DNA of 44,378 nucleotides from assembly GCA_020629255.1 (NCBI GenBank), contig JAHDDR010000009.1, positions 1 to 44,378 of the forward strand, in the 5' to 3' direction. Made by a program: the position numbers and the translations under genes. This DNA comes from Saprospiraceae bacterium (GTDB lineage: Bacteria; Bacteroidota; Bacteroidia; Chitinophagales; Saprospiraceae). Below are positions 5,155-25,210 of the stretch, one piece after another. A model generated the notes under the pieces. That model was not told the origin of the DNA, did no database searches, and worked only from the letters and a program-made list of their open reading frames with translations. Numbering within the stretch: the stretch's first letter is position 1; each line of letters begins with the position of its first letter.

Positions 5155-5198
5155 GTTTTGCATGACGATTAAATAACATATATCAAAAACAAAAAATC

Positions 5199-5513: not shown

Positions 5514-5526
5514 TGAACAAATAAAG

Positions 5527-6990: not shown

Positions 6991-7548
6991 ATGAAAATAC
7001 TGGTATTCGGCAATATCGGTTCGGGTAAGACTACTTTTTGCAAAGCCCTCTCGGAGCACCTCTCCGATTGGGAATATCTCGCTATTGATGATTTTCGAAG
7101 AACGTATGGAGACAACACATTCAAGGGAGATTCTATTGCAAAGAGCCATTTTATAAAAAGCATCACTCACGACGATTCATTACAACTCATTGAAAGCTCG
7201 GGCTTTGGCCGACTGGGCAGCTCTCTAGCTAGACGCTTACAAAAATATGAAGGCGAGCTGATTGTACTTGTTTTATTGGTAAAAGGAGATCAATGCAAAC
7301 AACGGTTGGAATCCCGCGAATGGGATGTTCCTTTTCCAGAAAACACAACCAAAGGAGATGCCCTTGTAAAAAAAATGGATAAACTTATTTTTTCTAATTT
7401 CCTCTTTGAACGGTGGTCAACCAGAGAGAAAACCCTTTTTATACAAGCCCCTCATATTGTTCCAAATGACACCCTAGTTTTAATATCGACTCTTACCAGT
7501 TATATCAATACTAAAGGATTAGCCAACCTCAACAATCACTTTATATAA
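6991..7548 (+). CDS. P-loop nucleotide kinase/ATPase-like protein
   Basis: A 185-residue cytoplasmic P-loop protein when started at ATG 6991; a longer version from 6934 adds 19 residues that do not look conserved and place the Walker A motif unusually deep. The N-terminal MKILVFGNIGSGKTTFCKAL is a Walker A loop directly after the first strand, as in adenylate-kinase-like and zeta-toxin-like kinases. IDDFRRTYG supplies the acidic residues usual after strand 2, and IVLVLLVKGDQCKQRLESRE resembles the LID/adenine region with Arg residues. The substrate is unknown. It stands alone between a terminator (6899-6935) and a palindrome (7552-7569), so it is likely monocistronic. Similar small ATPases are common and poorly characterised. 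Confidence 0.7.
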   Translation: MKILVFGNIGSGKTTFCKALSEHLSDWEYLAIDDFRRTYGDNTFKGDSIAKSHFIKSITHDDSLQLIESSGFGRLGSSLARRLQKYEGELIVLVLLVKGDQCKQRLESREWDVPFPENTTKGDALVKKMDKLIFSNFLFERWSTREKTLFIQAPHIVPNDTLVLISTLTSYINTKGLANLNNHFI

Positions 7549-7551
7549 TAT

Positions 7552-7569
7552 TTTCAATAAATATTGAAA
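7552..7569. terminator. 18-bp palindrome after the P-loop gene, overlapping the menF -33 region
   Basis: TTTCAATA-AA-TATTGAAA is a perfect 8-bp inverted repeat starting 4 bases after the stop codon at 7548 and followed by GTTTGTTTTTT. It fits a short A/T-rich terminator of the upstream gene. It also covers the -33 region of the menF promoter, so it could equally be an operator. Confidence 0.45.
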
Positions 7570-7594
7570 GTTTGTTTTTTAGCCGTTATATTTG
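7563..7594 (+). promoter_or_regulatory. Bacteroidota-type promoter of menFDB
   Basis: TATATTTG at 7587-7594 is a perfect TAnnTTTG -7 box, with ATTG at 7563-7566 as -33 element 20 bases upstream, within the usual spacing. The menF ATG follows 36 bases later. The -33 element lies inside the palindrome 7552-7569. Confidence 0.6.
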
Positions 7595-7630
7595 TCTAAG
7601 AAAATAGAAATGGTTAACTAGCCACGTCTT

Positions 7631-8674
7631 ATGAAACACGAGCTTGGTAATAAAGATGCTTTTGCAATATATAGACTTCCCAATGAGGAGAACCACTACT
7701 TGTTGAAGTCAAGGAACCAACAACCTATCCCTTTTGCAAAGCTGGGAAAAGAAGAAACGGCCTTTGTCATGCATCCATTCGATGCAGAAGGGAATGCTCC
7801 TGCCCTGGCTCTTATCCCTGAAGAAATCTACATTAATCCCCAATTTATTTTCAAGAGTGCACATCATGGGGAACCACATTTCATTTCTGAAGAAAATTAT
7901 TTGCCATTGCTGGAAAACTTCATCCAATGCATTTGTGATAATAATTTTCACAAAGCGATTTGTTCCAGGGTCATACCCAAACATATGCCAACAGAAAATC
8001 TTTATGCCCTTTTCATGAAAATGAAAAAGCAATATCCTTTTGCTTTTGTTTACCTAATCAATTTACCGGGCATCGGATGTTGGATGGGAGCGACCCCTGA
8101 AATTCTACTAACAGAAAATAATGGAATTGGAGAGACCGTTGCTCTTGCTGGTACGAGACCGCTCAGCAGCATGGAAGATTGGGGCAAAAAAGAAATTATT
8201 GAGCAGCAAATGGTCGAACGGTACATTGCTAACATTCTGATTAGTCGGAAAAAGAGTTTTCAAAAAATAGGGCCATTTACCGTTAATGCCGGCCATGTGA
8301 TGCATCTAAAAACACGCTTCCGCTTCCCGCTAGAAAGCCATTGGAAAGAAGTTGCTCTAGACATCCACCCTACCCCAGCCATTTGCGGATTACCACAAGA
8401 TAAAGCCCAACAATTCATACTAGAAAACGAGCCTCATGATAGAAGCTACTATTGTGGGTTCTTGGGGCCTGTAAATTTTCAAGGCAAAACAGATTTATTT
8501 GTCAACCTTCGGTGCATGCAAGTGTTTAAGGATAAATTCGCCCTTTATGTGGGTGGTGGAATCACATCCGATTCAGAACCTGAAAAAGAATTGGAAGAAA
8601 CTCGTTGGAAATCCCGTACTTTGTCGGACATTATCGAAGAAGTATATAATAGTGAGCAAATTTATATCAGATAA
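7631..8674 (+). CDS. menF: Isochorismate synthase MenF
   Basis: A 347-residue chorismate-utilising enzyme that converts chorismate to isochorismate, the entry step of menaquinone synthesis. The C-terminal chorismate-binding fold is well seen: CWMGATPEILL, VALAGTRPLS, FTVNAGHVMHLKTRFRF, HPTPAICGLPQDKA, and YYCGFLGPVN followed by VNLRCMQV and YVGGGITSDSEPEKELEET with the metal-binding Glu residues. The N-terminal half is short compared with Escherichia coli MenF (about 430 residues), which is common in Bacteroidota. The assignment as MenF rather than anthranilate or aminodeoxychorismate synthase rests mainly on its position: it overlaps menD by 23 bases and menB follows. Confidence 0.92.
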   Translation: MKHELGNKDAFAIYRLPNEENHYLLKSRNQQPIPFAKLGKEETAFVMHPFDAEGNAPALALIPEEIYINPQFIFKSAHHGEPHFISEENYLPLLENFIQCICDNNFHKAICSRVIPKHMPTENLYALFMKMKKQYPFAFVYLINLPGIGCWMGATPEILLTENNGIGETVALAGTRPLSSMEDWGKKEIIEQQMVERYIANILISRKKSFQKIGPFTVNAGHVMHLKTRFRFPLESHWKEVALDIHPTPAICGLPQDKAQQFILENEPHDRSYYCGFLGPVNFQGKTDLFVNLRCMQVFKDKFALYVGGGITSDSEPEKELEETRWKSRTLSDIIEEVYNSEQIYIR

Positions 8675-10367
8675 ACATAGTGTCAGGAATTTGGTGGAAA
8701 TCTGTGCTGCCAAAGGCATCCGCTATGTCATAATATCTCCGGGTTCAAGAAATGCTCCGCTTACCATTACTTTTAGTGAACATGATGCTTTTGAATGTTT
8801 GAGTATTCCGGATGAACGCTCTGCCGCTTTTATTGCTTTGGGCATTGCCCAACAAACAGGGGTACCGGCTATTATCACCTGTACTTCGGGTAGTGCTTCA
8901 TTAAATTATGCTCCGGGCATCAGTGAAGCCCATCATCAAGGCATACCCATGGTGGTTCTAACCGCTGATCGTCCTGAAGAATGGATAGGTCAGGGCGAAG
9001 GGCAATCCATTAACCAACGCAATGTATATGACAACTATATTTTAAAAAGTTATTCCTTGCATTTGGATTTATCCGACAAGGATCATATTTGGTCGAATGA
9101 TCGAATGGTTTGCGAGGCGATTGACATCGCCAAAAATAAGCAAGGGCCCGTACATATTAATATGCCTTTCCGAGAGCCTTTATATGTCCATCATACATAC
9201 GACGACGTTCCTTTACCCAAAGTCCATACTCAAGAAAAATTAGAATACAAACTACCTGATTCATTATTAGAAAAATTATCTAATACATGTAATACCGCTT
9301 CTAAAATTTTAATTCTTTGTGGATTAATTCCTAGAAAAAACAAAACATTAAATCGACAGTTAAATCAGCTGGGTCAAACCGTTGTTGTTTTTTCAGAATC
9401 CACTTCCAATATTATTGGTGAACATATTTTTAATCATATTGACGGATTATTAAGCCACCCTTCTTCGGAAAATGAACAACCCGAAATTTTAATTACAATC
9501 GGTCATTCTTTTATTTCAAAAAAAATAAAAAAATGGTTGAGAAAAAATACGCCCACGGAGCATTGGCATATTTCTGAAAAAGAAAATGCCCAAGATGTTT
9601 TCCAAGCATTAACCTCACATATAAAAATAGAACCTTCCTTATTTTTTCAAGAATTTATTCCGAAAATAAATTCAGCGAAAAAAGAAAAAAACAAATACAA
9701 AGAATTATGGAATAACATCAAAAAAGGAAATGAAAAAATAAATATTCTTTCTCGTTTTGATAAAGAAAAAATTCTTTCTGATTATACTGCTTTTTCAAAA
9801 ATGCTAGAAGCATTACCCCAAAATACTAATTTACATTTAGGAAATTCCTCTCCTGTTCGATATGCTCAACTTTTCCCTTTACGGGAAGATATTTTATATA
9901 ATAGCAATCGAGGAGTAAGTGGTATTGACGGCAGTTCTTCTACCGCCATAGGTGCTGCATTGGTCAATAAACGACCTACTGTTTTAATGACCGGAGATAT
10001 TTCTTTTTTTTACGATTCCAATGCATTATGGAACTATCAGTTACCCAGCAACCTGAGAATTATAATTATCAACAACCAAGGAGGAGGAATTTTTAATTTA
10101 ATTCCGGGCCCGCCCTCTACGAAACATTGTGAAACATTTTTTGAAACCCATCACAACTTTAAAGCCAAAGGAATTTGCGAAGCATTTCATGTTCCTTATT
10201 TTTTTGTAGAAACCATAGAAGAATTAGAAAAAACATTGCCTGAATTTTATGCTCCCCAAAAAAACAATCGCCCGGCTGTTCTCGAAATATATACAGACCG
10301 GTCATTTAATGATATCGTATATCATTCTTATTTTAATGAAATCAATACATCTAAATACGTAGAATAA
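8652..10367 (+). CDS. menD: SEPHCHC synthase MenD
   Basis: A thiamine-diphosphate enzyme that condenses isochorismate with 2-oxoglutarate. I place the start at GTG 8652 (residues VSKFISDKHSVRNL), giving 571 residues, the normal MenD size; an upstream ATG at 8499 would add 51 residues that are only the menF gene read in another frame. Motifs: IISPGSRNAPLT near the N-terminus, PDERSAAFIALGIA, TCTSGSASLNYAP, VLTADRPEEWIGQGEGQSIN, and in the C-terminal ThDP domain RGVSGIDGSSSTAIGAAL, MTGDISFFYDSNALWN and INNQGGGIFNLIPGP. The 23-base overlap with menF indicates translational coupling. The middle domain is more A-rich than the rest, but the frame is unbroken. Confidence 0.95.
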   Translation: MSKFISDKHSVRNLVEICAAKGIRYVIISPGSRNAPLTITFSEHDAFECLSIPDERSAAFIALGIAQQTGVPAIITCTSGSASLNYAPGISEAHHQGIPMVVLTADRPEEWIGQGEGQSINQRNVYDNYILKSYSLHLDLSDKDHIWSNDRMVCEAIDIAKNKQGPVHINMPFREPLYVHHTYDDVPLPKVHTQEKLEYKLPDSLLEKLSNTCNTASKILILCGLIPRKNKTLNRQLNQLGQTVVVFSESTSNIIGEHIFNHIDGLLSHPSSENEQPEILITIGHSFISKKIKKWLRKNTPTEHWHISEKENAQDVFQALTSHIKIEPSLFFQEFIPKINSAKKEKNKYKELWNNIKKGNEKINILSRFDKEKILSDYTAFSKMLEALPQNTNLHLGNSSPVRYAQLFPLREDILYNSNRGVSGIDGSSSTAIGAALVNKRPTVLMTGDISFFYDSNALWNYQLPSNLRIIIINNQGGGIFNLIPGPPSTKHCETFFETHHNFKAKGICEAFHVPYFFVETIEELEKTLPEFYAPQKNNRPAVLEIYTDRSFNDIVYHSYFNEINTSKYVE

Positions 10368-12503: not shown

Positions 12504-12932
12504 TTATGGATGTGCCGAAACCCACACTTCCCCATTTTCAAAAATTTCTTTTTTCCAAATCGGTACCGTTTCTTTTAGCGTATCAATAGCAAATTGGCAA
12601 GCTTCGAAAGCTGCTTTCCGATGAGGTGCCGAAACCACAATGACAACCGGAATTTCACCCACTTGCAAAACACCTGTTCGATGATGAATCACTATCTTAA
12701 AAACATCAAAATTTTTAATGGCTTCCTCTGCAATTTTTCTCATTTCGGAAAGGGCCATTTTTTCGTAGGCTTCAAATTCCAGACGAATTACTTTTTTTCC
12801 ATTTGTTTGGTTTCGAACCGTACCTACAAAAGAAACAATTCCTCCCGCCGAATTATCGGCTACAAAATTAAAAGCTATATCTGAAGACAGTTCTTCCGCT
12901 TGTAAAATAATATTTATTTTTCCATCCATCAT
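12504..12932 (-). CDS. moaE: Molybdopterin synthase large subunit MoaE
   Basis: A 142-residue catalytic subunit that inserts two sulfurs, carried by MoaD thiocarboxylate, into precursor Z (cPMP). Typical motifs are GGIVSFVGTVRNQTNGK, LEFEAYEKMALSEM, HHRTGVLQVGEIPVVIVVSA, HRKAAFEACQFAID and the active-site region ETVPIWKKEIF with two Lys. Length is normal. The start codon overlaps the moaD stop in an ATGA arrangement, and a second in-frame Met follows immediately, so the first residue is uncertain by one. Cytoplasmic heterotetramer with MoaD. Confidence 0.95.
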   Translation of the reverse strand: MMDGKINIILQAEELSSDIAFNFVADNSAGGIVSFVGTVRNQTNGKKVIRLEFEAYEKMALSEMRKIAEEAIKNFDVFKIVIHHRTGVLQVGEIPVVIVVSAPHRKAAFEACQFAIDTLKETVPIWKKEIFENGEVWVSAHP

Positions 12933-13171
12933 CCTCCTGCTACGGGTGGTATTAATGCAATTTCATCCGAAGAAGAAATCAATAAATCATCATTACCGTA
13001 TTCTTCGTTTACGGCAATCAATAACGATTTTAATGCTTTGAATTTCGGAAACTCACTTTCTAATTTATTTTTTAAATCAGCAACAGTTGCTCCTTCATTC
13101 AAATCAATAAAAATACTATTATTCTTCACGATGTCTTTTGTAATACCGAATGCTAAAATTTTCACTTTCAT
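12929..13171 (-). CDS. moaD: Molybdopterin synthase sulfur carrier MoaD
   Basis: An 80-residue ubiquitin-like sulfur carrier when started at ATG 13171 (MKVKILAFGITKDIV). The frame extends upstream to 13309, but those extra 46 residues are Cys/Phe-rich, unlike the family, and run into the divergent mog gene. The ubiquitin fold is seen in the initial beta strands, GATVADLKNKLESEFP and the C-terminus DEIALIPPVAGG, whose terminal Gly-Gly is the site of adenylation and thiocarboxylation. The activating enzyme (MoeB/ThiF type) is not in this window. First gene of the minus-strand moaD-moaE-12118 operon, coupled by ATGA to moaE. Confidence 0.93.
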   Translation of the reverse strand: MKVKILAFGITKDIVKNNSIFIDLNEGATVADLKNKLESEFPKFKALKSLLIAVNEEYGNDDLLISSSDEIALIPPVAGG

Positions 13172-13261
13172 ATTGGTTGTAAAATTAAGCTTATTCATTC
13201 GAAATAAAAAACATGATGAACAGCATCCAACAATCTTTAGGGATTTTCTTATCTTTAGAAT

Positions 13262-13792
13262 ATGAAAGCAAAAATAGGAATCATAAATGTTTCGGATAGA
13301 GCCAGCCAAGGAATTTATGAAGACCTGCCGGGCAAAGCTGTTGTTGCTACGTTAAAAGAATATTTAATTTCTGAATGGGATTTCGAATATGCCGTTATTC
13401 CTGATGAGCAACATTTGCTTGAAAAAAAAATGACCGAAATGGCCGATGAAAAAAATTGTTGTTTGATCATTACCACCGGAGGAACGGGGCCAGCAAAAAG
13501 GGATGTGACACCTGAGGCTACCGAGGCTATTTGTCAAAAAATGATGCCCGGTTTTGGTGAACGAATGCGAATGGAAAGTTTAAAATATGTACCCACGGCC
13601 ATCTTGTCCCGACAAACCGCAGGAATAAGAAACCAAACATTAATTATTAATTTACCTGGAAAACCGAAAGCCATCCGCGAATGTTTGGATGCTGTTTTTC
13701 CCGCCGTTCCTTATTGTATTGATTTAATTGAAGGTCCTTATTTAAAAACCGATGAAAATGTCATTCGTGCATTTCGTCCAAAAGCCAAATAA
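13262..13792 (+). CDS. mog: Molybdopterin adenylyltransferase (MogA/MoaB family)
   Basis: A 176-residue MogA/MoaB-fold enzyme that adenylates molybdopterin before metal insertion. Recognised by IGIINVSDRASQGIYED, LIITTGGTGPAKRDVTPEAT, FGERMRMESLKYVPTAILSR and the C-terminal LINLPGKPKAIRECLDAV. The TGGTG-x-R/D-V-T-P stretch is the pterin/ATP-binding signature. It is the first gene of the plus-strand operon mog-MOSC-moeA-moaC-mobA and divergent from moaD across 90 bp. A TATCTTTA box (one mismatch to the -7 consensus) lies only 4 bases before the ATG, so a leaderless or near-leaderless mRNA is possible but unproven. Confidence 0.92.
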   Translation: MKAKIGIINVSDRASQGIYEDLPGKAVVATLKEYLISEWDFEYAVIPDEQHLLEKKMTEMADEKNCCLIITTGGTGPAKRDVTPEATEAICQKMMPGFGERMRMESLKYVPTAILSRQTAGIRNQTLIINLPGKPKAIRECLDAVFPAVPYCIDLIEGPYLKTDENVIRAFRPKAK

Positions 13793-14233
13793 ATGGAAAA
13801 AGGAAAAGTAGAATGGATTAGTATTCGTCCGAAAACGAAAGAAATTTCTATTTTAAATGAAGTCGAAGTTTCTGTAGAAAATGGTTTAATTGGCGATCGA
13901 TATAAGAAAATAAATGGTAAAAGACAAGTCACTTTAATTCAAAAGGAACATCTTGATATTATTGCTTCTTTTATCGGTCAAGAAAAAATTGAGCCTCAAC
14001 AAACTCGAAGAAATATTGTCGTATCGGGTATTAATTTAAAATCGTTCATCGGTAAAAAAATGAACATCGGAAATGTAATTTTAGAAATTACGGATCATTG
14101 TGTTCCTTGCGACAACATGGACAAAACGTTAGGCGAAGGAGGAAGGAATGCTATGGAAGGCATGGGTGGAATTACAGCCCGAGTTATCCAAGGGGGGCGG
14201 ATTAAAATAGGTGACGCCGTTTTGCGAGATTAA
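13793..14233 (+). CDS. MOSC-domain protein
   Basis: A 146-residue stand-alone MOSC (molybdenum cofactor sulfurase C-terminal) domain, related to YiiM and to the sulfur-carrying C-terminus of eukaryotic Moco sulfurase. Key features: NGLIGDRY near the N-terminus, TLIQKEHLD, RRNIVVSGINL, and the conserved Cys region TDHCVPCDNMDKTLG, followed by GGITARVIQGGRIKIGD. It starts immediately after the mog stop codon and is inside the Moco operon, so it probably handles the cofactor or its sulfur ligand; its precise reaction is not known for short MOSC proteins. Confidence 0.88.
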   Translation: MEKGKVEWISIRPKTKEISILNEVEVSVENGLIGDRYKKINGKRQVTLIQKEHLDIIASFIGQEKIEPQQTRRNIVVSGINLKSFIGKKMNIGNVILEITDHCVPCDNMDKTLGEGGRNAMEGMGGITARVIQGGRIKIGDAVLRD

Positions 14234-14262
14234 TTCTTTTTAAATTAAAAAAAACACAAGCA

Positions 14263-15456
14263 TTGATTACCGTTCAAGAAGCTACAGAAATTATTTTACA
14301 ACATGGCTACTTACCTAAAGTAGAAAAAATAAAATTGGAACATTCTGTAGGACGAATTTTAGCCGAAGACATTTTAGCCGATCGGGACTTCCCTCCTTTT
14401 GATCGAGTAATGATGGATGGTGTTGCTTTATCTTTTGCTTTTTTTTCTCCAGAAAACCATTTAACGATTGAAGGTGTTCAAGCAGCGGGTTCTCCTCCTT
14501 TAATTTTAAAAGAAAAAAACAATTGTATTGAAATCATGACGGGTGCCGTTTTACCTCAAAACACAGATAGTGTTGTGCGTTATGAAGATTTTGAAAAAAT
14601 TGACCAAAAAATAAAAATAAATATTTCCGATATAAAAAAAGGACAAAATATACATTTCCAAGGAACGGACAGAAAACAAGGTGATATCATCATTAAAAAA
14701 AGCAATATTATTTCTCCGGCAGAAATTGGCGTAATGGCCACCGTTGGCAAAAAAGAAATCAATGTCCTTTCCTTGCCGAAAATTGCTATTTTTAGCACGG
14801 GTGATGAATTGGTCAACGTAAAAGAAACACCCCTCCCCCATCAAATTCGAAAATCGAATATTCATGTACTGGAATCTATTCTACAAAAAGAAAAAATAAA
14901 AACTACATCTATTCATATCAAGGACAATAAAGAAGAAATTAGAAGTGGATTATCCAAAGCACTTTTAAATAATGATGTCCTGATTTTAAGTGGTGGCGTA
15001 TCAAAAGGAAAATATGATTACATACCAGAAATATTAGAAGAACTTGGCGTTGAAAAATTATTTCACCGAGTAAAACAACGCCCGGGCAAACCTTTTTGGT
15101 TTGGAAAATCCAAAGAAGGAAAAATTGTTTTTGCATTGCCGGGCAATCCTGTTTCTACCTTTATGTGTACCAATCGTTATTTTTTGCCCTGGCTGAGAAA
15201 TTCAATGGGCTTACCCTCAATTCACTCTCCTTATGCCATCCTTACGGAGGATTTTTATTTCGACAAAGATTTACAATATTTTCTTCAAGTAAAAATAAGT
15301 CATAATAAAAAAGGGCAACTTTTAGCAACGCCCAAAATCGGACAAGGATCAGGAGATCTGGCTAATTTGGTCAACGCTGATGGATTCCTCGAATTACCAC
15401 AAGAACAACAACAATTTAAAAAAGGAGAATGTTACCCTTATATTTCTTTTAGATAA
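14263..15456 (+). CDS. moeA: Molybdopterin molybdenumtransferase MoeA
   Basis: A 397-residue MoeA that inserts molybdate into adenylated molybdopterin. The best start is the TTG at 14263 (reading ITVQEATEIILQHG), since no in-frame ATG exists between the MOSC stop (14233) and the conserved N-terminus. Motifs: VGRILAEDILADRDFPPFDR, EIMTGAVLPQNTDSVVRYED, IAIFSTGDELV, ILSGGVSKGKYDYIPEI, VKQRPGKPFWFGKS and ALPGNPVSTFMCTNRY. The C-terminal domain IV is short but present. It sits between MOSC and moaC, 29 and 6 bases apart. The rare TTG start may reduce translation relative to neighbours. Confidence 0.93.
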   Translation: MITVQEATEIILQHGYLPKVEKIKLEHSVGRILAEDILADRDFPPFDRVMMDGVALSFAFFSPENHLTIEGVQAAGSPPLILKEKNNCIEIMTGAVLPQNTDSVVRYEDFEKIDQKIKINISDIKKGQNIHFQGTDRKQGDIIIKKSNIISPAEIGVMATVGKKEINVLSLPKIAIFSTGDELVNVKETPLPHQIRKSNIHVLESILQKEKIKTTSIHIKDNKEEIRSGLSKALLNNDVLILSGGVSKGKYDYIPEILEELGVEKLFHRVKQRPGKPFWFGKSKEGKIVFALPGNPVSTFMCTNRYFLPWLRNSMGLPSIHSPYAILTEDFYFDKDLQYFLQVKISHNKKGQLLATPKIGQGSGDLANLVNADGFLELPQEQQQFKKGECYPYISFR

Positions 15457-15462
15457 TTTGAA

Positions 15463-15945
15463 ATGGATAAAAATAAATTTACACATTTAGACGAAAAAGG
15501 CAATCCAAGCATGGTAGATGTGGGTCAGAAAAAGCCGACACATCGAATAGCAAAAGCAAGGGCTATCATTTCTTTAAATACAGAAATTTTAGCACAATTA
15601 AATGACGGGGAAATAAAAACAAAAAAAGGGCCCGTTTTTCAGACGGCTATTATTGCAGGCATGATGGCGGCCAAAAAAACAGGCGAATTAATTCCCTTGT
15701 GCCATCCTATCGGAATGGATAATTGCCAAGTAGACATACAAGTAAAAAACAAAGAAATCATTATTGATTGTACGGCGAGCGTTTTTGCAAAAACGGGAAT
15801 AGAGATGGAAGCCATGACCGGTGCTTCAGTAGCTGCCCTGACCATCTATGACATGTGCAAAGCCTTTTCTCATGATATTGTCATCAAAGAAATTAAACTC
15901 ATGGAAAAACATGGAGGAAAAAAAGATTTTAACCGAAACGAATAA
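15463..15945 (+). CDS. moaC: Cyclic pyranopterin monophosphate synthase MoaC
   Basis: A 160-residue MoaC. It converts the 3',8-cyclo-GTP made by MoaA into cPMP, the first stable Moco intermediate. Family motifs: FTHLDEKGNPSMVDVGQKK at the N-terminus, KKTGELIPLCHPIGMDN with the active-site Cys-His, and KTGIEMEAMTGASVAALTIYDMCKA. Length is normal. It begins 6 bases after moeA and overlaps mobA by 35 bases. The MoaA partner needed for its substrate is not encoded here. Confidence 0.95.
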   Translation: MDKNKFTHLDEKGNPSMVDVGQKKPTHRIAKARAIISLNTEILAQLNDGEIKTKKGPVFQTAIIAGMMAAKKTGELIPLCHPIGMDNCQVDIQVKNKEIIIDCTASVFAKTGIEMEAMTGASVAALTIYDMCKAFSHDIVIKEIKLMEKHGGKKDFNRNE

Positions 15946-16480
15946 TTTATATGGTTTGGTTCTCGCTGGTGGGCAAAGTCGAAGAATGAAACAAGACAAA
16001 AGCTTGATGGCGTACCATGACATCCCTCAAGCAGAATATACTTATCGTTTATTATCTCCTTTTTTTGAACAAACATTTATTTCTTGTCGTGAAGATCAAA
16101 AAAACAATTTCAACCCCAACTGTCATTTAATTTTTGATCGTTATGATTCCATTGGCCCTATTGGTGGTTTATTATCCGCTTTTGAAAAACACCCTGACTC
16201 TTCTTTTTTTGTTCTTCCTTGCGACATGCCTTATCTCACCCAAGAAGAAATAAAAACAGTATTACAAAAAAGAAGTCCCTATAAAAAAGGAAGCTATGTT
16301 TTTAATGCTAGCACTAAAAACATAGAACCTTTATTTTGCATTTATGAACCTTCTTCTCACCCTTTGGTAAAAAAAGCGGTTCAAGAAAAAGAATATTCTT
16401 TGCGAAAGCTCATTTTAAAATATGATTTTGAAAAGGTAATCCTTAATAAAAAAGATCGATTAATGAATATCAATGAATAA
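15911..16480 (+). CDS. mobA: Molybdenum cofactor guanylyltransferase MobA
   Basis: Started at ATG 15911 (MEEKKILTETNNLYGLVLAG), 189 residues; the frame is open from 15848 but that part overlaps moaC. MobA links GMP to Moco to make the MGD form used by DMSO-reductase-type enzymes. Signature motifs are LVLAGGQSRRMKQDKSLM (GTP-binding loop), FDRYDSIGPIGGLLSAFEKH and FVLPCDMPYLTQEEI. The last gene of the Moco operon, ending 15 bases before the convergent stop of the giant T9SS protein gene with no clear terminator between. Its presence suggests that the cell uses a guanylylated-cofactor enzyme. Confidence 0.92.
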   Translation: MEEKKILTETNNLYGLVLAGGQSRRMKQDKSLMAYHDIPQAEYTYRLLSPFFEQTFISCREDQKNNFNPNCHLIFDRYDSIGPIGGLLSAFEKHPDSSFFVLPCDMPYLTQEEIKTVLQKRSPYKKGSYVFNASTKNIEPLFCIYEPSSHPLVKKAVQEKEYSLRKLILKYDFEKVILNKKDRLMNINE

Positions 16481-16495
16481 GCTATCATATTGGTA

Positions 16496-19400
16496 TTATT
16501 TCCTTAACACCACTATTTTCCTTTTGAATATTCTCTTACCTACCGAAATCCAAACAAAATAGATCCCTGGTTTCCAGTCCGAAGTGTCGAAATCAAGAAC
16601 CTGATGCCCCTTTGGCAATTCACCATATTCTTTTGAGAATACGGGGTTGCTTAAAGCATCATAAATAATTAGACTTACCATTTCTTTATTTTTCAAGTTT
16701 AATTCTGTCTGTGTTCTGGAGAACGTAGGATTGGGATAGAAATGCCCCATTATCGATTTTTCTTCTGATTTTTCAACAGCTTTCCAATTATTCGAACAGA
16801 AAATGTCTTGGTATTGGCTTACTCCCACTCCCTGCACAAATACATCTGTAGATGTCTGGGGAAAATAGGGAAGCCCCATTTCGTTTGCCATCGATCCGAT
16901 GCTTCCTTCAGCAGTCAGATTGGTTGGTATTATATTGTTATCCCCTTCTTCAGAATCATAACAGCCATCATTATCACTATCTAGATCTAATCGATTTACA
17001 ATTCCGTCATTATCCTGATCACAAGAATTTAATGAATAAATTGATAGCCAAATTCCATTATTAGGGTTAAATGAACTAATGGTAATACTGGTTACCGTTT
17101 TATCACTCTTCCCTATAATATGTCCTTGTACACTATCTACACCCTCGTTGATTTTTCCAGAAGAAGCGTCATAAGTAACTATCCCTAAATTCTGATACTG
17201 AGAAGGATTTCCACCAGATAAAATTCCTTCGGCTACTTCAAAATCCAAGGTGGTTGCCGTTCCTTCATTGATTTCTAAAACAAGCGGATGAACTCCTGTA
17301 TTCCAAATTCCATCATATACAAAAATGCCGATCTCGTAGGCTTTAACCGGTTTATCAAAATGAATGGTTAGACTACTATTAGAATTATAGAAATATGGCG
17401 ATTGAAAAAAATCTAATGTTGTCTCCGTTCCTGACACTCCAGATAAAAAACTACTACTACCAAAAGTTGAATACCCTACATAATTTGGAGTTATTTGAAC
17501 ATTTGTTTGAGTTTCCCCTTTCCATATATCTGTTCCGGAATAGTATAAAGATGAAGTTAAGCCACATTCATCAATATCAGATATTCCATCGTTGTCATCA
17601 TCTAAGTCTATATCATCGGTTATTCCATCACTATCAAAATCTTGTTCACATTCCATAACATCAAAATCTTGGCTATTTCCAATTGATTGACTTATTGCAA
17701 TTCCGTTTTCATTAATAGGAACACCATTGATATCTGATGTAGTTCCAAAACTACCATCAGCTTCTATGTCTGAATTAGTATAATCTCCATCCCCCTCTTC
17801 AGCATCATAACAGCCGTCTGAATCGGAATCCAAATCCAGATAATTTGGAATCATATCATTGTCTGTATCACAGGAAAGCGAAATCAGATCAAAGAGGAGT
17901 TGCCCCCCCTGAAAAGTAAGTCGGATATTATTGACCAATTCGTCTCCACTCCCCAAGAGGAAGAGGTCAGAACAATTAGAGAAATTGGAATCATTATTTA
18001 TTTGCCCTGTAGTTGTGTCGAAAGTAGGGAGTTGTATTGCACAATTGGATACGAGCAGGTCATATATCCCACCTATAGAATTGGAAGGGATAGAGTTGAA
18101 ATCATTTGAACTTACAGTTCCGTTAATCTCAATGCCTACTTGATAAGAACCCCATATTCCCCAGAAATGCAGCCCTATCTTATTGATGGGGGTGGGTTCT
18201 GAAAAAGAAATGAATATATTCCCTCCATTTGCTGTAACATAAGATGAACCAATATGGGCTTTTCCTGAAAATTCGGAGGAGGTCAAATCGAAATCATAGG
18301 GCTGGCTGCCAATATTTTCCCAATCATAAAAAGTAGCATTTGATGTGTTTGTTTCTACAGCCACACCAGACTCATTCCAAATGCCATTATTAGTAGCTTG
18401 GTAGATACATTCGTCGTTATCTTGAATTCCATCGTTGTCATCATCCAAGTCAACTGTATTAATAATGCCATCACCATCAGTATCCAAGCAAGATGTAGCA
18501 TCACTGCCCAAAACAATAAGGTGGAGCTTAGTCGTATTGGTACATCCATTTTCGAGTTCTTCATACATGAAATAAGTGCCGCTTTCCATCAATTGATTTC
18601 CATCGAAGGGGTAAGAATCCCCCTCGCAGATTTCCACTTCTAAAAACACATCGTTATTTTCACAGCATATCTGTGCGATAACATTTGGATCATTGCTGGC
18701 CCCAATTCCCTGTACGATCTCTATTCCTTCCACTATAGGGATACCCATAACATTGGAAACCGTACCAAAACTCCCGTCTAGAGGCAAGTCAGAATCATAT
18801 CCCATCGTACCTTCCAAAGCATCATAACAACCATCACCGTCCGAATCCAGATCCAGACTGTTCACAGTGCCGTCACCGTCACTATCGCAATCGGATATCC
18901 TATACAAAACACAAACTATATTTTCATTCGAGAAAATCGTGGAACGCAGCCTTATCCTGGTAACCAATGCATTGGAATTTCCGATGATATGCCCTTCGAA
19001 TGATTCATTTGTAGGTCCATTGATATTTCCTGTAAAAGGATTGTATTCCAATGTGGAAGGGTTAATGCCTGATGAGGATATTATGCCTCCCGTTGATTCT
19101 GCGTCAAAAACAGAAAATGAAGTGTTCATGTCCGTTTCCCCTGAGAAAGAAACGCTTAATTCCGAATTCGAGGTGCTGTGCTTGATGATATAAATACCAA
19201 TGGCGCTTGCTTCAACACCTTCTGAAAATTCAAATTCATAAACGGATTCCAATGGATTGCCTAAATTATCAGTTTCTCCGGCAAACAGAATGACATCATC
19301 TACATCCAGTTCAATACCCAAAGAAGGTATCGTGCTGATATAGTTGTAACCGTTTCCTTGGTCATCCAAATAATTCGAAAGACTTGTTTGCCCCCCCTCA

Positions 19401-22400
19401 TTGACATTTGTTGTACTTAGACTTAGAAGGCTGGTCCCCCAGTCGTTTTGGCCAACATTAAGCGATGCAACTTCGCAGTTTTCCTCCAAGTCTGGGATTC
19501 CGTCATTGTCATCATCCAAATCTTCTATATCGACAACCCCATCTCCGTCTGTATCTAGGCAGGAGGCAGCATCACTGCCCAAAACAATCAGGTGGAGTTT
19601 AGTCGTATTGGTACATCCGTTTTCAAGCTCTTCATACATGAAATAAGTCCCGCTTTCCATCAATTGATTTCCATCGAAGGGATAAGAATCCCCTTGGCAG
19701 ATTTCCACTTCTAAAAACACATCGTTATTCTCACAGCATGCCTGTGCGATAACATTCGGATCATCGCCCGTTCCAATTCCCTGCATGATCTCCATGCCGT
19801 CCACAATGGGGATTCCCATATCATTTGAAACGGTACCAAAACTCCCGTCGGGAGGCAAGTCGGAATCATATCCCATTGTTCCTTCCAATGAATCAAAACA
19901 ATCATCACCATCCGAATCCAGATCCAAGCTATTTACAATGCCATCACCGTCACTATCCGTATTACAATTATTGTATGATATCCTTATGTTATCTATTCGG
20001 AGTTCATCTGCTCCCGAGCTTCCCTGTAGATTCAAGACATTTGTATCTGGACCAGAATAGGGTATGGTTACCGTCACATTTTGGGTCATGAGATTATTGT
20101 CATTAGAAACGACAAATTCGGTATGGCTTACGATTGCTCCATTCCTTCCCCAAATACCAGAAACCCTATCAGGCCATGAATCGGTTGTGGCAGAAAGGAC
20201 ATCGTGGCAGCAGCCTAGCCAGATAAGGAAACTGGCTGCATTCCCATTCCCTGCGTTCGGCTCGGAACTAGCATGGGAAGTACCCCCTATATCAAAAGAG
20301 ATGGTAATCGTCCCTCCTGCTTGGTTTAGACCTGATATTTCTTGACTCATGAAATGTACTCCATTTATATTTGGATTGACATTAGCCACGCCATCCTCTA
20401 AAATCCAACCACTGGACAAACCATTTCCGATTGGTTCCCAAGACGAGTCATTATCAAAACTGGGGTTAGATAACACATACAATTCCTCACATTCCTCAGT
20501 ATCTGGGATGCCATCATTGTCATCATCGAGATCCATACTGTCTGGAACACCATCTCCGTCTGTGTCAAGACATTCCGAAACATCTAAAACAGTTAAATCC
20601 ATATAAACAACAGATTCACAATTATTCGTAGATGATTGTGTAATTGTATGTGAATACAGCCCACTCTCTGTCAATATTTCTCCATAGAAATTATAAAATT
20701 CTCCTTGACAGATTTCTTCTGAGATACTTTCGATTTCATCAACTAATAAGTTAGGATCGATATTGGCAGGGTTAGCCAAGTCGAATGTATTAGCCAATTT
20801 GATATCATCCAAAAGAATGGATATGACCGTGGCATTTGCATTGTCTGTAGAGTTGGGATGATAAATTCCTGAACTCAGCCTCCATTCATCTGGTCCATCT
20901 TCATATCCCCAAAAGAGGTTCATTTGTCCTTCTAGGGTTCCATTCACCCATACGCCAATTTCTCCTAAAATCCCTTCAATATCCGCTCTGCTTGGCCTTG
21001 CTTTCAGCACTATATTATGCCAATTACTCTTTGGTCCTATATCAATCCAAGTCATATCAAAAGGATGGTGTTGTACTCCTTCTGAATCTGCTACTTCTGC
21101 TCTTAGGAAAATATTACCATCCATTACTTTACACCAAATAACAAAAGGGACTGGCCGTGGGGAATGATCAAACACCTGAACCATTTGCATAAGAACAAAA
21201 TGATTCGTATTATTTGGAGTTTCCTCATCAAAAGTGAATGCCTGTCCGTAATATTTTGTTTCTCCGAATTTTAATGCATAAGGTTCATGTCTTAGGGACG
21301 TAACGATTTCTGATCTTTCTTTTTCTGAATCGGTATTTGGATTAATTCTACAACGAATGGATTTATTTCCAGAATTAGAGTTTTCGAAATTAATTTCAGG
21401 TTCTTCTCCATCTGAACCAGAATATAAAAAATATTCCAATCCGTTATCGTTTAAATAATTGCCAGTGGTACTTGGCTCTCCCGTATTATTATAGAAAATA
21501 TCAATACATTCAGCATCAATATTTGAAAATAGTTCTGCTGGGATTTCTGTAACATTCAATTGGATTATGCTGTCACATCCAAATTCGGTTTGGGTAGTGT
21601 GTAGATACTCCCCTGCTTCAGTTATTATCTGCCCTTCAAATGTAATGGTTTCTCCTGATACTAATTCATGTTCTAATATGGTGTTGGGAACTAAAAAGTA
21701 ATTTGCTTTTATCCAATCAATCTCAAAATCGATACCTGAACTTGTTATTGGATCAACACGTATTAAATTAATAGCTCCTTTCCAATTATCATGAGTATAG
21801 ACTGGAAAAACAATTTCTTGCCAGTTGCCATTTCCACTATAAGGTAAGGTAATTAAATAGTGACTATTCGTATCATTTCTTTTCCAAAAAAATTGAATGG
21901 TTGTATTATTGATATCAGCTTTCAGTTTCACTACGACTTCTGTTATTTCATCAGCAGACAAAAAGACATTGCTATTATAAAAATAAGGGTCGCTAGTACT
22001 GGAAGTTGCTGAAAAAACTCCTGATTGTACTGATATATTTTCCATATTTTGGAAGACTGAAAAACCTTCAAAATTACCATCTTCATTAAACTGGAATGCC
22101 ATATCTGAAGCAGAAAAAGGATTTCTACCCTCCGATAATTCATCTCCATCACTCATTCCATCTCCATCACTATCATGTATCGGATTTTCAGAATTAAATG
22201 CTCTTATCCAGTCTACATCAAAATCCAAACCTACATTTGTCACAGGATCAAGTCTTAAAGTGGTAATTATATTATTCCATTCATCATGGGTTCCAACATC
22301 AAATACAATTTGCTGCCAATCACCATTTCCTGTATAAGGTATGGTCATGACACTATATGAATTGGAAATATTGTTTTTCCAAAGGAGCTGGGTATTGGTA

Positions 22401-25210
22401 TTGTTCGTGGCTCTAATTTTTACAATTATTTCATTTATATTCCCTGCGTTTATATTTAAATTATCATTCCATATATGTGCATCTCCGTTATTTATTGAAC
22501 TACCTGACAAGCTTCCGCAAGCTACAGTTACATTTTCTATATTATTCATTCCTGTCCAACCCTCAAAATTTGAATCTTCATTGAAATGAAATGCCATATC
22601 AGATGCAGAGAAAGGATTATTTCCACTATTAACTTCTTGGTTATCTGATATTAGATCTCCATCAGAATCCACAAGTGTTGGAGTAAAATCTGTTACCCAT
22701 GTTAGGGTATAGAGTTGGCTTCCCGTATCCTGTAGCCGGCTATCAGCAATGGGTCGGATATACAAATCCCCATTTGGCTCAATAAAGTACCCCGATTCTG
22801 TTGCACTTTTAAGTTCGGCAAGAGAGCCATATTGATAAACCTGATCATTATTGGCATTTATGTTTATGCCACCTAACTTACCAAAATCCTTTAATCGAAT
22901 CACATAACTATCACCTACCTCTATAGCATCGTACATTCTTAATTGAATTGTTTTAGTGTGGGGAAGGGTTTCATAATAGAATGTATATAAAAAATCATCA
23001 TTACAAATTAAAGGAACGGCATGATGTGTTCTGAAACCTTGACTGTAATACAGATAAGCGGGATCAGTACCATCTTTCGTCCGATGGATGGTCATGACCG
23101 GTTTCTCTTCGGGTGAAACAATATTGTAAGTAAGGTGTGCCAGTGAATAATGGTGATTATTTACATAAGCATTATTCCAATTCTCAGGTTTTGTCTCTTG
23201 ACCAGTCAATAATAAGGGGTGGTTACTTACTATGGAACTGCTACCCTGATTACTTACTGATCCATCATCTCTGAAAACCATTGTCCATGTTCTGGGATGT
23301 TCAGGTTCCCCGTTTGTGATAAAGGATTTAGGAGGGAGATCATAATTGGGTAATCTAATGGGCAATGGTTCAGTGTGATTGGTTGTAATATTTTCAAAAC
23401 AATGATTCAATCGTTTCACTGCAGCGAAGCCATTCAAAATAGAATTAGCATTTGGCAAATTCCAATCTACTAAATAACTATTTTTTATACATCCTGCACC
23501 ATCATATGCACGATATAAATGTTGCTCACCAGTTATATTTCCTTCATTGGAATTGAAAATAAGTGCTGAGGAATCAATAACTACAAAAGAGGCAAGCATC
23601 ATATTCCTTCTATTGTCTATAAAGACATTATTCCTGAAAATTAGATTTGATGAAAGGCCTCCACTCCCTATTCCTGCATAAACACCTAGGTTATTTGAAT
23701 ACCACGTACAACTATCCATATAATGCAAATCTGAATTAGCCCATCCTTTGTTTGTCAATATTACGTGGGGTTCATTTAGGGAAATTTGATCGAAGATGTC
23801 GAAACCATTCATACAACTATGGGCCTTATTGCCATAGAATCTACCTAATGGTTCTTTATAGGGTTCTAATCCCTCAAAATATGGATGACCATTTGAAAAA
23901 CCTGTTGGCTCGATTGGAAAAGCAAACCAATATCCAGTACCCTCTGTGCCAGCAGCAATATTATTCTCAATAATATTATTAGGGTTAGTGATCCAATAAC
24001 TTGATGGCGTACGATTTTGAAATTGATCGTGCGAATTATCCGATGCAATAATTTCTTCTCCCGGAGCTGGCTTTTTAGACAGAAGGGTAACGTTTTTACT
24101 CACTGTGTTAAACCGTTCACTACCATCTTCAAAAAATACTCCATGACCTATATGATCATAGAAAAAATTATTTTCAACTGTAGTAAAATCAGTACCATGA
24201 ATCGTAATAGCCCTATTATATGACAAATGCACGCTCGAATTTTTAAAGTATTGACCATCGCCTCCATCTGTTATCATATGCCAATGAAATGGATATTTTC
24301 CTAAATAAGATTTTTGTCCCATTCTGTATAATTCAACACCATCAAAATAAGCTTTACCACCAGAATGCATCATAACATGGCCTCCATACCCCTCTGCTTC
24401 TGACACTTGATCTCCTTGAACAACAATATTATGACTAAGCAATCCTACTTCAGCACGAATATCTGCTATCCACGTTTCTTCATCTGAAGATCTAGTATAA
24501 TCCTTGGTAATACCCGTATGAGGAAATTCCAATGGCATATATAAACTAATGGTTAGACTATCAGGACTAATGGATTGAATTCTTCTTTTCTCAGCTTCAT
24601 TCCAATCTAAACGAGTAGAAGTTATTACTATTTCATCATCAACTTCCCAATTGACAGGCTCAGATAGGGTTATTGTAAAGCTGCCCTCAGAAACATTACC
24701 CGCTAATTTAACCCAACTGTTTTTTTGTTTTCCATGTAAGTTTAACGTTGCTTCACCTGAAGCACCTACATATTTATTATCAAAACCAATATCATTAGTG
24801 CCGTCATCAATTCCTGTTAAATTTATGACTCCAGAGCCTAAATATCTGTTTGACGGGAGTCCGATTTCTAGTTCTGCAAACTCACCATGAACCCACAAGA
24901 AATCTGTATTTAGATAAAAATCAGCATTTCCATCGTTCATAAGTTTACCATTGACTGTAATATTTTTTGCATTACAATCCCCTACAAGTTTTACAATACG
25001 ACCAGAAGGAATAACAACTTCATCTGTTAGAGATGGGACCCCTTCAGGTGACCAAGTAGTATCTTCATTCCATAAGCCATTATTAATTGCTATAACTTGG
25101 CTTTTTGCCATTGGAAAAAAGAAAATCAATAATAAAAAGATAGCAATAATCTTAGGGAAGATCATCTTCAATTTTCGAATTGGACTTGAACAGGTAATTT
25201 TGTTTTTCAT
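16496..25210 (-). CDS. Giant T9SS cargo: G8, CEMIP-like beta-helix and polysaccharide-lyase-like domain
   Basis: 2904 residues. Signal peptide 1-38 (IIAIFLLLIFFFPMAKSQ). G8 domain about 45-170. Residues about 240-830 form a right-handed beta-helix resembling vertebrate CEMIP/TMEM2: KYPFHWHMITDG, ITIHGTDFTTVENN, GHGVFFEDGSERFN, WITNPNNIIENNIAAGTEGT. Two similar carbohydrate-binding-like modules (about 880-1005 and 1035-1170), each preceded by a DSDGD calcium repeat and sharing LRLDP/IRVDP and DWI motifs. Residues about 1224-1478 resemble a PF14099-type polysaccharide lyase (ERSEIV, YYGQAFTF, WHNIVLKARPS, GEIGVWVNGTLEG). Then alternating short ICQGDSYPFDGNQL modules, DTDGDGVVD/DLDDDNDGIPD thrombospondin-3-like repeats and beta-sandwich insertions to about 2780. 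The last 85 residues are a type A T9SS sorting domain (FYPNPTFSRT, GIYFVWISVGKRIFKRKI). Predicted to be cell-surface or secreted; substrate (hyaluronan-like or other uronic-acid glycan) is inference. Confidence 0.9.
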   Translation of the reverse strand: MKNKITCSSPIRKLKMIFPKIIAIFLLLIFFFPMAKSQVIAINNGLWNEDTTWSPEGVPSLTDEVVIPSGRIVKLVGDCNAKNITVNGKLMNDGNADFYLNTDFLWVHGEFAELEIGLPSNRYLGSGVINLTGIDDGTNDIGFDNKYVGASGEATLNLHGKQKNSWVKLAGNVSEGSFTITLSEPVNWEVDDEIVITSTRLDWNEAEKRRIQSISPDSLTISLYMPLEFPHTGITKDYTRSSDEETWIADIRAEVGLLSHNIVVQGDQVSEAEGYGGHVMMHSGGKAYFDGVELYRMGQKSYLGKYPFHWHMITDGGDGQYFKNSSVHLSYNRAITIHGTDFTTVENNFFYDHIGHGVFFEDGSERFNTVSKNVTLLSKKPAPGEEIIASDNSHDQFQNRTPSSYWITNPNNIIENNIAAGTEGTGYWFAFPIEPTGFSNGHPYFEGLEPYKEPLGRFYGNKAHSCMNGFDIFDQISLNEPHVILTNKGWANSDLHYMDSCTWYSNNLGVYAGIGSGGLSSNLIFRNNVFIDNRRNMMLASFVVIDSSALIFNSNEGNITGEQHLYRAYDGAGCIKNSYLVDWNLPNANSILNGFAAVKRLNHCFENITTNHTEPLPIRLPNYDLPPKSFITNGEPEHPRTWTMVFRDDGSVSNQGSSSIVSNHPLLLTGQETKPENWNNAYVNNHHYSLAHLTYNIVSPEEKPVMTIHRTKDGTDPAYLYYSQGFRTHHAVPLICNDDFLYTFYYETLPHTKTIQLRMYDAIEVGDSYVIRLKDFGKLGGININANNDQVYQYGSLAELKSATESGYFIEPNGDLYIRPIADSRLQDTGSQLYTLTWVTDFTPTLVDSDGDLISDNQEVNSGNNPFSASDMAFHFNEDSNFEGWTGMNNIENVTVACGSLSGSSINNGDAHIWNDNLNINAGNINEIIVKIRATNNTNTQLLWKNNISNSYSVMTIPYTGNGDWQQIVFDVGTHDEWNNIITTLRLDPVTNVGLDFDVDWIRAFNSENPIHDSDGDGMSDGDELSEGRNPFSASDMAFQFNEDGNFEGFSVFQNMENISVQSGVFSATSSTSDPYFYNSNVFLSADEITEVVVKLKADINNTTIQFFWKRNDTNSHYLITLPYSGNGNWQEIVFPVYTHDNWKGAINLIRVDPITSSGIDFEIDWIKANYFLVPNTILEHELVSGETITFEGQIITEAGEYLHTTQTEFGCDSIIQLNVTEIPAELFSNIDAECIDIFYNNTGEPSTTGNYLNDNGLEYFLYSGSDGEEPEINFENSNSGNKSIRCRINPNTDSEKERSEIVTSLRHEPYALKFGETKYYGQAFTFDEETPNNTNHFVLMQMVQVFDHSPRPVPFVIWCKVMDGNIFLRAEVADSEGVQHHPFDMTWIDIGPKSNWHNIVLKARPSRADIEGILGEIGVWVNGTLEGQMNLFWGYEDGPDEWRLSSGIYHPNSTDNANATVISILLDDIKLANTFDLANPANIDPNLLVDEIESISEEICQGEFYNFYGEILTESGLYSHTITQSSTNNCESVVYMDLTVLDVSECLDTDGDGVPDSMDLDDDNDGIPDTEECEELYVLSNPSFDNDSSWEPIGNGLSSGWILEDGVANVNPNINGVHFMSQEISGLNQAGGTITISFDIGGTSHASSEPNAGNGNAASFLIWLGCCHDVLSATTDSWPDRVSGIWGRNGAIVSHTEFVVSNDNNLMTQNVTVTIPYSGPDTNVLNLQGSSGADELRIDNIRISYNNCNTDSDGDGIVNSLDLDSDGDDCFDSLEGTMGYDSDLPPDGSFGTVSNDMGIPIVDGMEIMQGIGTGDDPNVIAQACCENNDVFLEVEICQGDSYPFDGNQLMESGTYFMYEELENGCTNTTKLHLIVLGSDAASCLDTDGDGVVDIEDLDDDNDGIPDLEENCEVASLNVGQNDWGTSLLSLSTTNVNEGGQTSLSNYLDDQGNGYNYISTIPSLGIELDVDDVILFAGETDNLGNPLESVYEFEFSEGVEASAIGIYIIKHSTSNSELSVSFSGETDMNTSFSVFDAESTGGIISSSGINPSTLEYNPFTGNINGPTNESFEGHIIGNSNALVTRIRLRSTIFSNENIVCVLYRISDCDSDGDGTVNSLDLDSDGDGCYDALEGTMGYDSDLPLDGSFGTVSNVMGIPIVEGIEIVQGIGASNDPNVIAQICCENNDVFLEVEICEGDSYPFDGNQLMESGTYFMYEELENGCTNTTKLHLIVLGSDATSCLDTDGDGIINTVDLDDDNDGIQDNDECIYQATNNGIWNESGVAVETNTSNATFYDWENIGSQPYDFDLTSSEFSGKAHIGSSYVTANGGNIFISFSEPTPINKIGLHFWGIWGSYQVGIEINGTVSSNDFNSIPSNSIGGIYDLLVSNCAIQLPTFDTTTGQINNDSNFSNCSDLFLLGSGDELVNNIRLTFQGGQLLFDLISLSCDTDNDMIPNYLDLDSDSDGCYDAEEGDGDYTNSDIEADGSFGTTSDINGVPINENGIAISQSIGNSQDFDVMECEQDFDSDGITDDIDLDDDNDGISDIDECGLTSSLYYSGTDIWKGETQTNVQITPNYVGYSTFGSSSFLSGVSGTETTLDFFQSPYFYNSNSSLTIHFDKPVKAYEIGIFVYDGIWNTGVHPLVLEINEGTATTLDFEVAEGILSGGNPSQYQNLGIVTYDASSGKINEGVDSVQGHIIGKSDKTVTSITISSFNPNNGIWLSIYSLNSCDQDNDGIVNRLDLDSDNDGCYDSEEGDNNIIPTNLTAEGSIGSMANEMGLPYFPQTSTDVFVQGVGVSQYQDIFCSNNWKAVEKSEEKSIMGHFYPNPTFSRTQTELNLKNKEMVSLIIYDALSNPVFSKEYGELPKGHQVLDFDTSDWKPGIYFVWISVGKRIFKRKIVVLRK
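18420..18890 (-). repeat. Intragenic duplication, copy A
   Basis: About 470 bases closely similar at DNA level to 19491-19961, with a constant offset of 1071 bases (357 codons). It encodes a DSDGDG block, the GTMGYDSDLP segment, the ICEGDSYPFDGNQLMESGTY module and the next DTDGDG block. Many synonymous sites are also identical, pointing to a fairly recent duplication or gene conversion. Confidence 0.8.
19491..19961 (-). repeat. Intragenic duplication, copy B
   Basis: Partner of 18420-18890. Differences are scattered substitutions; for example ICQGDSYPF here against ICEGDSYPF in copy A, and GTGDDPNV against GASNDPNV. The unit between the copies contains a different beta-sandwich domain, so a whole 357-codon cassette boundary was duplicated. 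Confidence 0.8.

Follow-up and report, generated by a model that had tools for sequence, protein, structure and literature searches.

What does a bacterial protein do that carries, in one chain, a core like that of CEMIP and TMEM2 and a segment like a polysaccharide lyase, and which of its parts could cut? This question is raised by a very long gene in a 44,378-nucleotide stretch of DNA from a Saprospiraceae bacterium (the window, meaning the whole stretch that was analysed). A first-pass annotation of the gene, made from the sequence, proposed that its product is exported by the type IX secretion system (T9SS) and may bind and cut hyaluronan or another uronic-acid polymer. We compared the protein with profiles, structures and relatives from other genomes.

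Domain order, export and surroundings of the gene

The gene occupies positions 16496-25210 of the minus strand, on which all features of the gene described below lie, as a single ATG-started open reading frame without internal stop. It encodes a predicted multi-domain secreted protein of 2904 amino acids. A hydrophobic, signal-like segment, read from the sequence by eye (residues 1-37; 25100-25210), is followed by a CEMIP/TMEM2-type core (residues 40-862; 22625-25093), a beta-helix with a following beta-rich domain, which was defined by an AlphaFold2 model and its match to TMEM2. The core contains a G8 domain (residues 52-170; 24701-25057; PF10162, E 7.5e-18, 65.1 bits, cut-off 22.9), which was recovered in a second search, and a CEMIP beta-helix (residues 275-469; 23804-24388; PF24606, E 2.6e-64, 217.3 bits, cut-off 27.3). 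Downstream of the core are two unnamed modules (residues ~909-1004, 22199-22486, and ~1073-1169, 21704-21994), separated by a TSP3-like spacer (residues 1013-1032; 22115-22174; PF18884, 20.2 bits, below the cut-off of 25). These modules, previously described as carbohydrate-binding-like, are real repeats with 48% identity to each other. Of 34 CEMIP-like ORFs, 19 have related copies; once loci fetched for the module are excluded, the figure is 12 of 24. The polysaccharide-lyase-like segment (residues 1278-1470; 20801-21379) was identified by PF14099 (E 4.1e-12, 46.9 bits, cut-off 29.9) and by a fold match. Next come TSP3-like spacers, rich in Asp, that alternate with other modules (17567-20572). 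This region has direct repeats, with a 300-nt unit present as a pair (86%) and an 81-nt unit present four times. The chain ends in a T9SS type A sorting domain (residues 2825-2901; 16508-16738; PF18962 (Por_Secre_tail), E 7.7e-7; TIGR04183 of NCBIfam, E 1.9e-8, 34.2 bits, cut-off 23). Besides the TSP3_bac match of the spacer (PF18884), two others fell short of their cut-offs: AglB_L1 (17.1 bits, cut-off 23.6) in Pfam and, far below, BamM in the repeat part (45.6 bits, cut-off 315, NCBIfam). The sequence motifs quoted by the first-pass annotation are present in the protein, and its one-chain domain order was confirmed by Pfam and NCBIfam for G8, the CEMIP helix, PF14099 and the sorting tail. 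The G+C content climbs to 0.43-0.44 within part of the C-terminal repeat region (18600-20400), compared with 0.33-0.39 in most of the remaining gene.

The proposed export by T9SS is supported by the sorting domain together with SprA in the organism's own genome (2450.6 bits), SprA being the sole component from which the presence of the machinery was judged. The window also encodes a protein that joins a response regulator to a PglZ domain (3537-5099, plus strand), an architecture that we associate with the T9SS regulator PorX. Neither a polysaccharide-degrading enzyme nor a SusC/SusD pair was found among the 30 other window ORFs scanned. Where a profile was matched, most of these ORFs belong to menaquinone, molybdenum-cofactor, AMP-ligase, GTPase, regulator or envelope types, and the nearest thing to a polysaccharide-related gene in the window is one whose product has a Laminin_G_3 domain, which is lectin-like (5527-6768). 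A molybdenum-cofactor-type row (MoaE, ThiS-like, MoCF, MOSC, MoeA, MoaC, MobA-like; 12504-16480) adjoins the giant gene, and a propeller-type sensor histidine kinase (Reg_prop, Y_Y_Y, His_kinase), with a LytTR response regulator after it (39267-42963, plus strand), lies about 14 kb from it.

The CEMIP/TMEM2-type core and its candidate active site

The kinship with CEMIP and TMEM2, for which TMEM2 served as the comparison, is supported by profile, sequence and predicted structure. When the whole protein was searched against the PDB (phmmer, E up to 1), TMEM2 (8c6i) was the sole chain matched, at E 2.1e-41. An AlphaFold2 model of residues 40-862 built from 60 sequences (pLDDT 94.4, pTM 0.93) also had TMEM2 as its best solved structure (Z 35.7, rmsd 3.0, 742 residues aligned), with model residues 3-806 aligned to TMEM2 118-1165. 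The next structure, the alginate epimerase AlgG, reached Z 19.5 over 314 residues. The refuting case named by the first-pass annotation, a beta-helix that matches only generic pectate-lyase-like helices, did not arise: the TMEM2 score is far above that of the other helices. The helix end was placed near model residue 600 from the strand pattern of the model; because the 742 aligned residues run past this point, much of the following beta domain is probably common to TMEM2. That domain (residues 640-860; 22631-23293) would correspond to 'domain X' of TMEM2, for which the crystal study reports no close relative among known structures (PMC10206443). Judging from the aligned length, TMEM2 domain X thus probably has a bacterial counterpart. 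In the predicted structure, a beta-helix that truly belongs to the CEMIP/TMEM2 family, together with the beta domain behind it, takes up the front ~820 residues.

Conservation in this core points to a particular set of residues. In a 60-row bacterial alignment, for which 59 of the 88 CEMIP-like ORFs of named loci were chosen for coverage, 26 columns are invariant, and 24 of these 26 are identical in TMEM2. In a larger set of 104 distinct bacterial sequences (121 rows), drawn from the 80 best-scoring relatives (of 251 confirmed) and from the order set and therefore poor in very remote CEMIP-like members, H309, R333, H338, E361 and E365 are invariant (104/104), and H311 (103), H464 (102), H278 (101), D362 (100) and H356 (98) are nearly so. 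Our candidate catalytic cluster (residues 309-365; 24116-24286) consists of H309, H311, R333, H338, E361 and E365, with H356 and D362 as less constant members. Human TMEM2 is identical at all eight positions. TMEM2 numbers are obtained by adding 82 to the chain position; counted in the phmmer alignment, R, D and D then fall at 265, 273 and 286. In this numbering, the counterparts of H309, H311, R333 and H338 are H550, H552, R580 and H585, and those of H356, E361, D362 and E365 are H603, E608, D609 and E612. In the model, H311, H338 and E361 lie in or beside strands 269-275, 296-301 and 319-321, which are successive coils of the helix; closeness in space was judged from these strand positions alone. 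An invariant H356, as it appeared in the 60-row alignment, was dropped on the full set, in which the other sequences have Ser or Asn. Relatives with Ser or Asn at this position are found in eight loci (L062, L066, L067, L069, L079, L080, L199 and L201) and may form a functional subgroup.

These residues bear on a problem in the animal proteins. Whether TMEM2 and CEMIP cut hyaluronan, and by which residues, is in dispute (PMC10206443, PMC12254123, PMC13113925). The purified human TMEM2 ectodomain had no activity in one study, as far as its available text goes (PMC10206443), and intrinsic activity is claimed in the title of another (PMC10474455). The crystal study reports that no active site could be confidently assigned. 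It describes a helix interrupted by a small sandwich and lectin-like domain 1, the insert to which the changes said to abolish activity, R265C, D273N and D286N, map (PMC10206443). In bacteria, the interval from W166 to W188 is 20-23 residues long in 60 of 60 rows of the smaller alignment and 121 of 121 rows of the larger set (104 distinct sequences), compared with 186 residues in TMEM2. Since the lectin-like insert is missing, the bacterial proteins have no counterpart of R265, D273 and D286. If the bacterial members are the same kind of enzyme, these three therefore cannot be the catalytic residues of the whole family. From its conservation, we propose the His/Arg/Glu cluster on neighbouring coils of the helix as the likely active site, although such conservation may also be structural.

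The lyase-like segment and the occurrence of the fusion

The second potentially catalytic part is the PF14099 segment. Searched alone against the PDB with phmmer, it matched only one unrelated chain (E 0.34). A family profile, which includes the window sequence itself, had as its best solved relatives the glucuronan lyase 2zzj, at E 9.2e-23, and heparin lyase I, at E 1.8e-6; we take the latter to be PL13. When the segment was modelled alone with four remote sequences, the model was of low confidence (pLDDT 60.8, pTM 0.69). This model nevertheless ranked 2zzj first (Z 15.7, 211 residues, 3.4 A, 13% identity), with 3imn at Z 15.1, and the ten best rows were 2zzj, six of heparin lyase I (14.6-15.1), two alginate lyases (14.4 and 14.3) and a GH131 protein (14.2). 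The glucuronan lyase has been classed as PL20 (PMC3764139). Thus, the PF14099-type assignment is borne out by a profile score above the gathering cut-off and by a lyase jelly-roll fold in the low-confidence model.

The residues of the putative site give a less uniform picture. In a 27-row family alignment, with the protein's own row counted, the segment retains R1299 (R in 18/27), E1301 (21/27), Q1342 (17/27) and Y1450 (23/27). R-x-E, Q and Y are presumably the lyase site motif, to which we assume that the charged residue two after Q and the Lys of KxGIY also belong. At the first of these two places the protein has V1344 where the aligned rows have H (10/27), K (9/27) or E (4/27), and at the second it has S1446 where K stands in 15 of 27 rows; both V and S are unique to this protein. 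The glucuronan lyase 2zzj itself departs at both positions, with QFI (no His of QxH) and RVGLY (Arg for Lys). The lyase activity of the segment is doubtful because V1344 and S1446 replace these residues, though 2zzj departs at the same two places. For the region 1224-1478, the first-pass annotation had expected both a lyase fold and active-site residues; the fold was recovered (2zzj at Z 15.7) and the site is incomplete at V1344 and S1446. With these two replacements, the segment may only bind.

It could still be that both modules cut, with the helix depolymerising a polymer and the PF14099 segment acting on the same polymer as an active beta-eliminating lyase. The four retained residues, the fold match and the fact that 2zzj, an active relative, departs at the same places are consistent with this. 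At the same time, this protein's row is the only one of the 27 with V1344 and S1446, and 2zzj has His where this protein has R1299, so that the two have not found the same solution. Furthermore, the fold relative Cip1 keeps the Gln and, in the available part of the report on it, showed no convincing lyase activity (PMC3764139). We therefore think that cutting by both modules is rather improbable.

The fusion of a CEMIP-type core with a lyase segment was described by the first-pass annotation as a combination not seen before, and it was seen nowhere else in the genomes and loci searched. No second case was found in the order, phylum and genus samples, which overlap, or in 33 CEMIP-positive genomes (27 from the order sample, three already known and three from the phylum sample); in the order sample, PF14099 was checked where CEMIP was present. 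PF24606 was found in 28 of 396 genomes of the order and in 5 of 395 of the phylum, and PF14099 in 24 of the 395 phylum genomes. Two phylum-sample genomes have both: that of the window, and G745, on different contigs. Among the 33 CEMIP-positive genomes, PF14099 is present in 11 and never in the CEMIP frame; in G330 and G481 the two share a contig of chromosome size but are separated by more than 3 Mb. The lyase segment is absent from all 88 CEMIP-like ORFs of 78 named loci, although some of these ORFs reach contig or locus ends and may conceal further domains. When 27 proteins were scanned, PF14099 was found in this one only; malectin was found in eight of the 27, and Ig/PKD modules are also partners.

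A fusion confined to one genome (one of nine in the genus) might be an artefact of assembly, as this genome is in 271 contigs and 300-nt repeats at 86% lie within the same gene. The frame runs uninterrupted through 2904 amino acids, the G+C bins are 0.35-0.39 over the lyase part and 0.35-0.37 over the CEMIP part, and the listed repeats (17567-20572) are outside the lyase segment, which together make an artefact very improbable. PF14099 was matched once in the whole of the own genome, in this gene. The same genome has a second CEMIP-like gene (L054, contig C10, 7476-11660, plus strand), which encodes 1394 amino acids with G8 and the CEMIP helix, without the lyase segment, and is 68% identical to the giant gene over residues 200-480.

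CEMIP-like relatives were found in seven bacterial phyla, which we take to be Bacteroidota, Verrucomicrobiota, Planctomycetota, Myxococcota, Deinococcota, Pseudomonadota and Bdellovibrionota. Among the best 80 of 251 relatives, core identity in other organisms reaches 67% over residues 200-477 (L126). Three consecutive CEMIP-like genes were observed in L055 and in L076-L077 (genomes G005 and G115), with eight matches in total in G005, and a weak CEMIP-helix match lies inside an exceptionally large open frame of 25,093 amino acids (L042; G250:C243:31061-31477). A viral origin was also considered. In viral collections, a partial CEMIP-like relative with 40% identity over a short stretch lies at a contig end (L204), and relatives of the PF14099 segment numbered none with one query and one, remote, with another (L205). 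In the open-licence literature, no published description of a bacterial CEMIP relative was found among the matches listed, and no paper was found that has 'G8 domain' together with 'polysaccharide lyase'. To our knowledge, no activity has been reported for any bacterial CEMIP-like member.

Neighbourhoods of relatives, substrate class and comparison with known systems

Lyases and CEMIP-like proteins are also found close together as separate genes. Just upstream of the CEMIP-like gene and on the same strand, lyase-like genes of the PF14099/PL14 kind were found in four of 78 loci, all from Aquimarina: L155 (2320-4548, PF14099; 7230-8675, A2 profile only), L157 (3662-5146, PL14; 5167-6630, A2 profile only), L169 (6292-8517, PF14099) and L173 (82-1914, PL14; 6997-9210, PF14099). 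A scan of the ORFs of the 78 named loci with the A2 (lyase) HMM gave six separate genes at E <= 7.5e-10, confined to these four loci; three pass Pfam PF14099, one is PL14 and two have no Pfam lyase match at 1e-5. Weak A2 matches in L130, L080 and L056 (E 1e-4 to 4e-3) were dropped. Since PF14099 is present in so few genomes of the phylum (24/395), this closeness is unlikely to be due to chance, with all four cases coming from one genus.

Genes of uronate (KDG) catabolism follow the CEMIP-like gene in two loci that were scanned gene by gene. Beyond the CEMIP-like gene and on the opposite strand, L169 has DctM, DctP, KDPG aldolase, PfkB kinase, DUF4861, SDR and KduI, a type of set that can take unsaturated uronates via KDG, and L164 has DctM, DctP, aldolase, PfkB and SDR. 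In L155 and L157, DctM lies at the locus end, again beyond the CEMIP-like gene and on the opposite strand, and no KDG genes were found among the ORFs scanned in L173, which has lyases. Around ten Aquimarina loci, 45 neighbours (42 of 72 listed ORFs plus three more) included five PL14, three DctM, three DctP, three aldolase, two PfkB and two SDR. Algibacter and Flavicella loci have sulfatases, GH78, GH3 and GH43 (ten hand-picked proteins), as might be expected if the substrate were ulvan or another sulfated polysaccharide.

Taken together, the neighbour types near relatives (PL14, PF14099, KduI, KDPG aldolase, sulfatases, GH78) point to uronic-acid polymers and not specifically to hyaluronan, and the fusion here together with neighbouring lyases in relatives points to a common substrate. 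Thus, of the substrate proposed earlier, the uronic-acid polymer class is favoured by the neighbourhoods of relatives, and hyaluronan was rejected as unsupported, the neighbours being of polyuronide and algal-polysaccharide type. Alginate as the only substrate also seems less likely, given KduI and the sulfatase, GH78 and GH43 genes near relatives. The first-pass interpretation as a whole is partly supported: it stands in kinship, PF14099 fold, T9SS export and a combination seen nowhere else in what was searched, and it is weakened in the choice of hyaluronan and in the lyase site.

The explanation that we favour, and on which we are evenly divided between belief and doubt, is that of a T9SS-exported protein acting on a uronic-acid polysaccharide. 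T9SS would export the multi-module protein toward a polysaccharide that contains uronic acid, and the beta-helix cluster H309, H311, R333, H338, E361 and E365, perhaps with D362 and H356, would catalyse. The main task of the PF14099 segment would be to bind or position the acidic chain, and it may retain some lyase activity, weak or altered. The use of uronate as food is not supported for this organism, because KDPG aldolase was not matched in its own genome (89% complete). That finding would also fit a non-enzymatic surface adhesin or matrix-binding protein, in which both folds have turned into binding modules. The very long, repeat-rich, T9SS-sorted chain and the scan of 30 window ORFs, none of which is a polysaccharide-utilisation enzyme, agree with such a role, and the activity of TMEM2 itself is disputed (PMC12254123). 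We consider it unlikely, as five charged residues that never vary among the 104 bacterial sequences and recur in human TMEM2 are more than we would expect of a scaffold and some relatives lie in degradative loci.

Returning to the favoured, catalytic reading, the evidence can be joined in a tentative proposal, which as a whole is more probably wrong than right. The invariant cluster (TMEM2 H550, H552, R580, H585, E608 and E612, perhaps with D609 and H603) would be the missing CEMIP/TMEM2 active site, and the lectin-like domain an addition for substrate capture on the animal side. Uronides would be cleaved by His-base chemistry like that of lyases or epimerases, not by classic hydrolysis, and the lyase would be joined here as in the neighbouring genes of relatives. 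The most useful outcome is the conserved residue set together with the simple bacterial versions: without the lectin insert, these are a simple soluble test system for the dispute on TMEM2/CEMIP activity, and conservation singles out six to eight positions at which the human proteins could be mutated. The Aquimarina loci suggest the substrate class, and the fusion is a natural cue to the type of enzyme that works beside a CEMIP core.

In comparison with known systems, the protein shares with human TMEM2 the G8 domain and the CEMIP beta-helix and, to judge from how far the alignment extends, probably much of the beta domain after it. It differs in that the match stops at TMEM2 residue 1165, before the C-terminal part of TMEM2, in that bacterial proteins are without the small beta-sandwich and lectin-like domain 1 insert, and in its additional modules and T9SS tail. 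The alginate C5-epimerases AlgG (Z 19.5 over 314 residues) and AlgE4 (Z 19.1 over 325 residues) are among the next-best helices, but with 10-13% identity and a much smaller part in common with the core. The lyase-like segment resembles the glucuronan lyase 2zzj and heparin lyase I in profile, predicted fold and the R/E/Q/Y positions, whereas here two charged positions are lost and the segment is fused to a CEMIP core. With the bacterial CEMIP-like proteins of seven phyla, the protein has the core in common, and it is set apart from them by the lyase segment that they lack.
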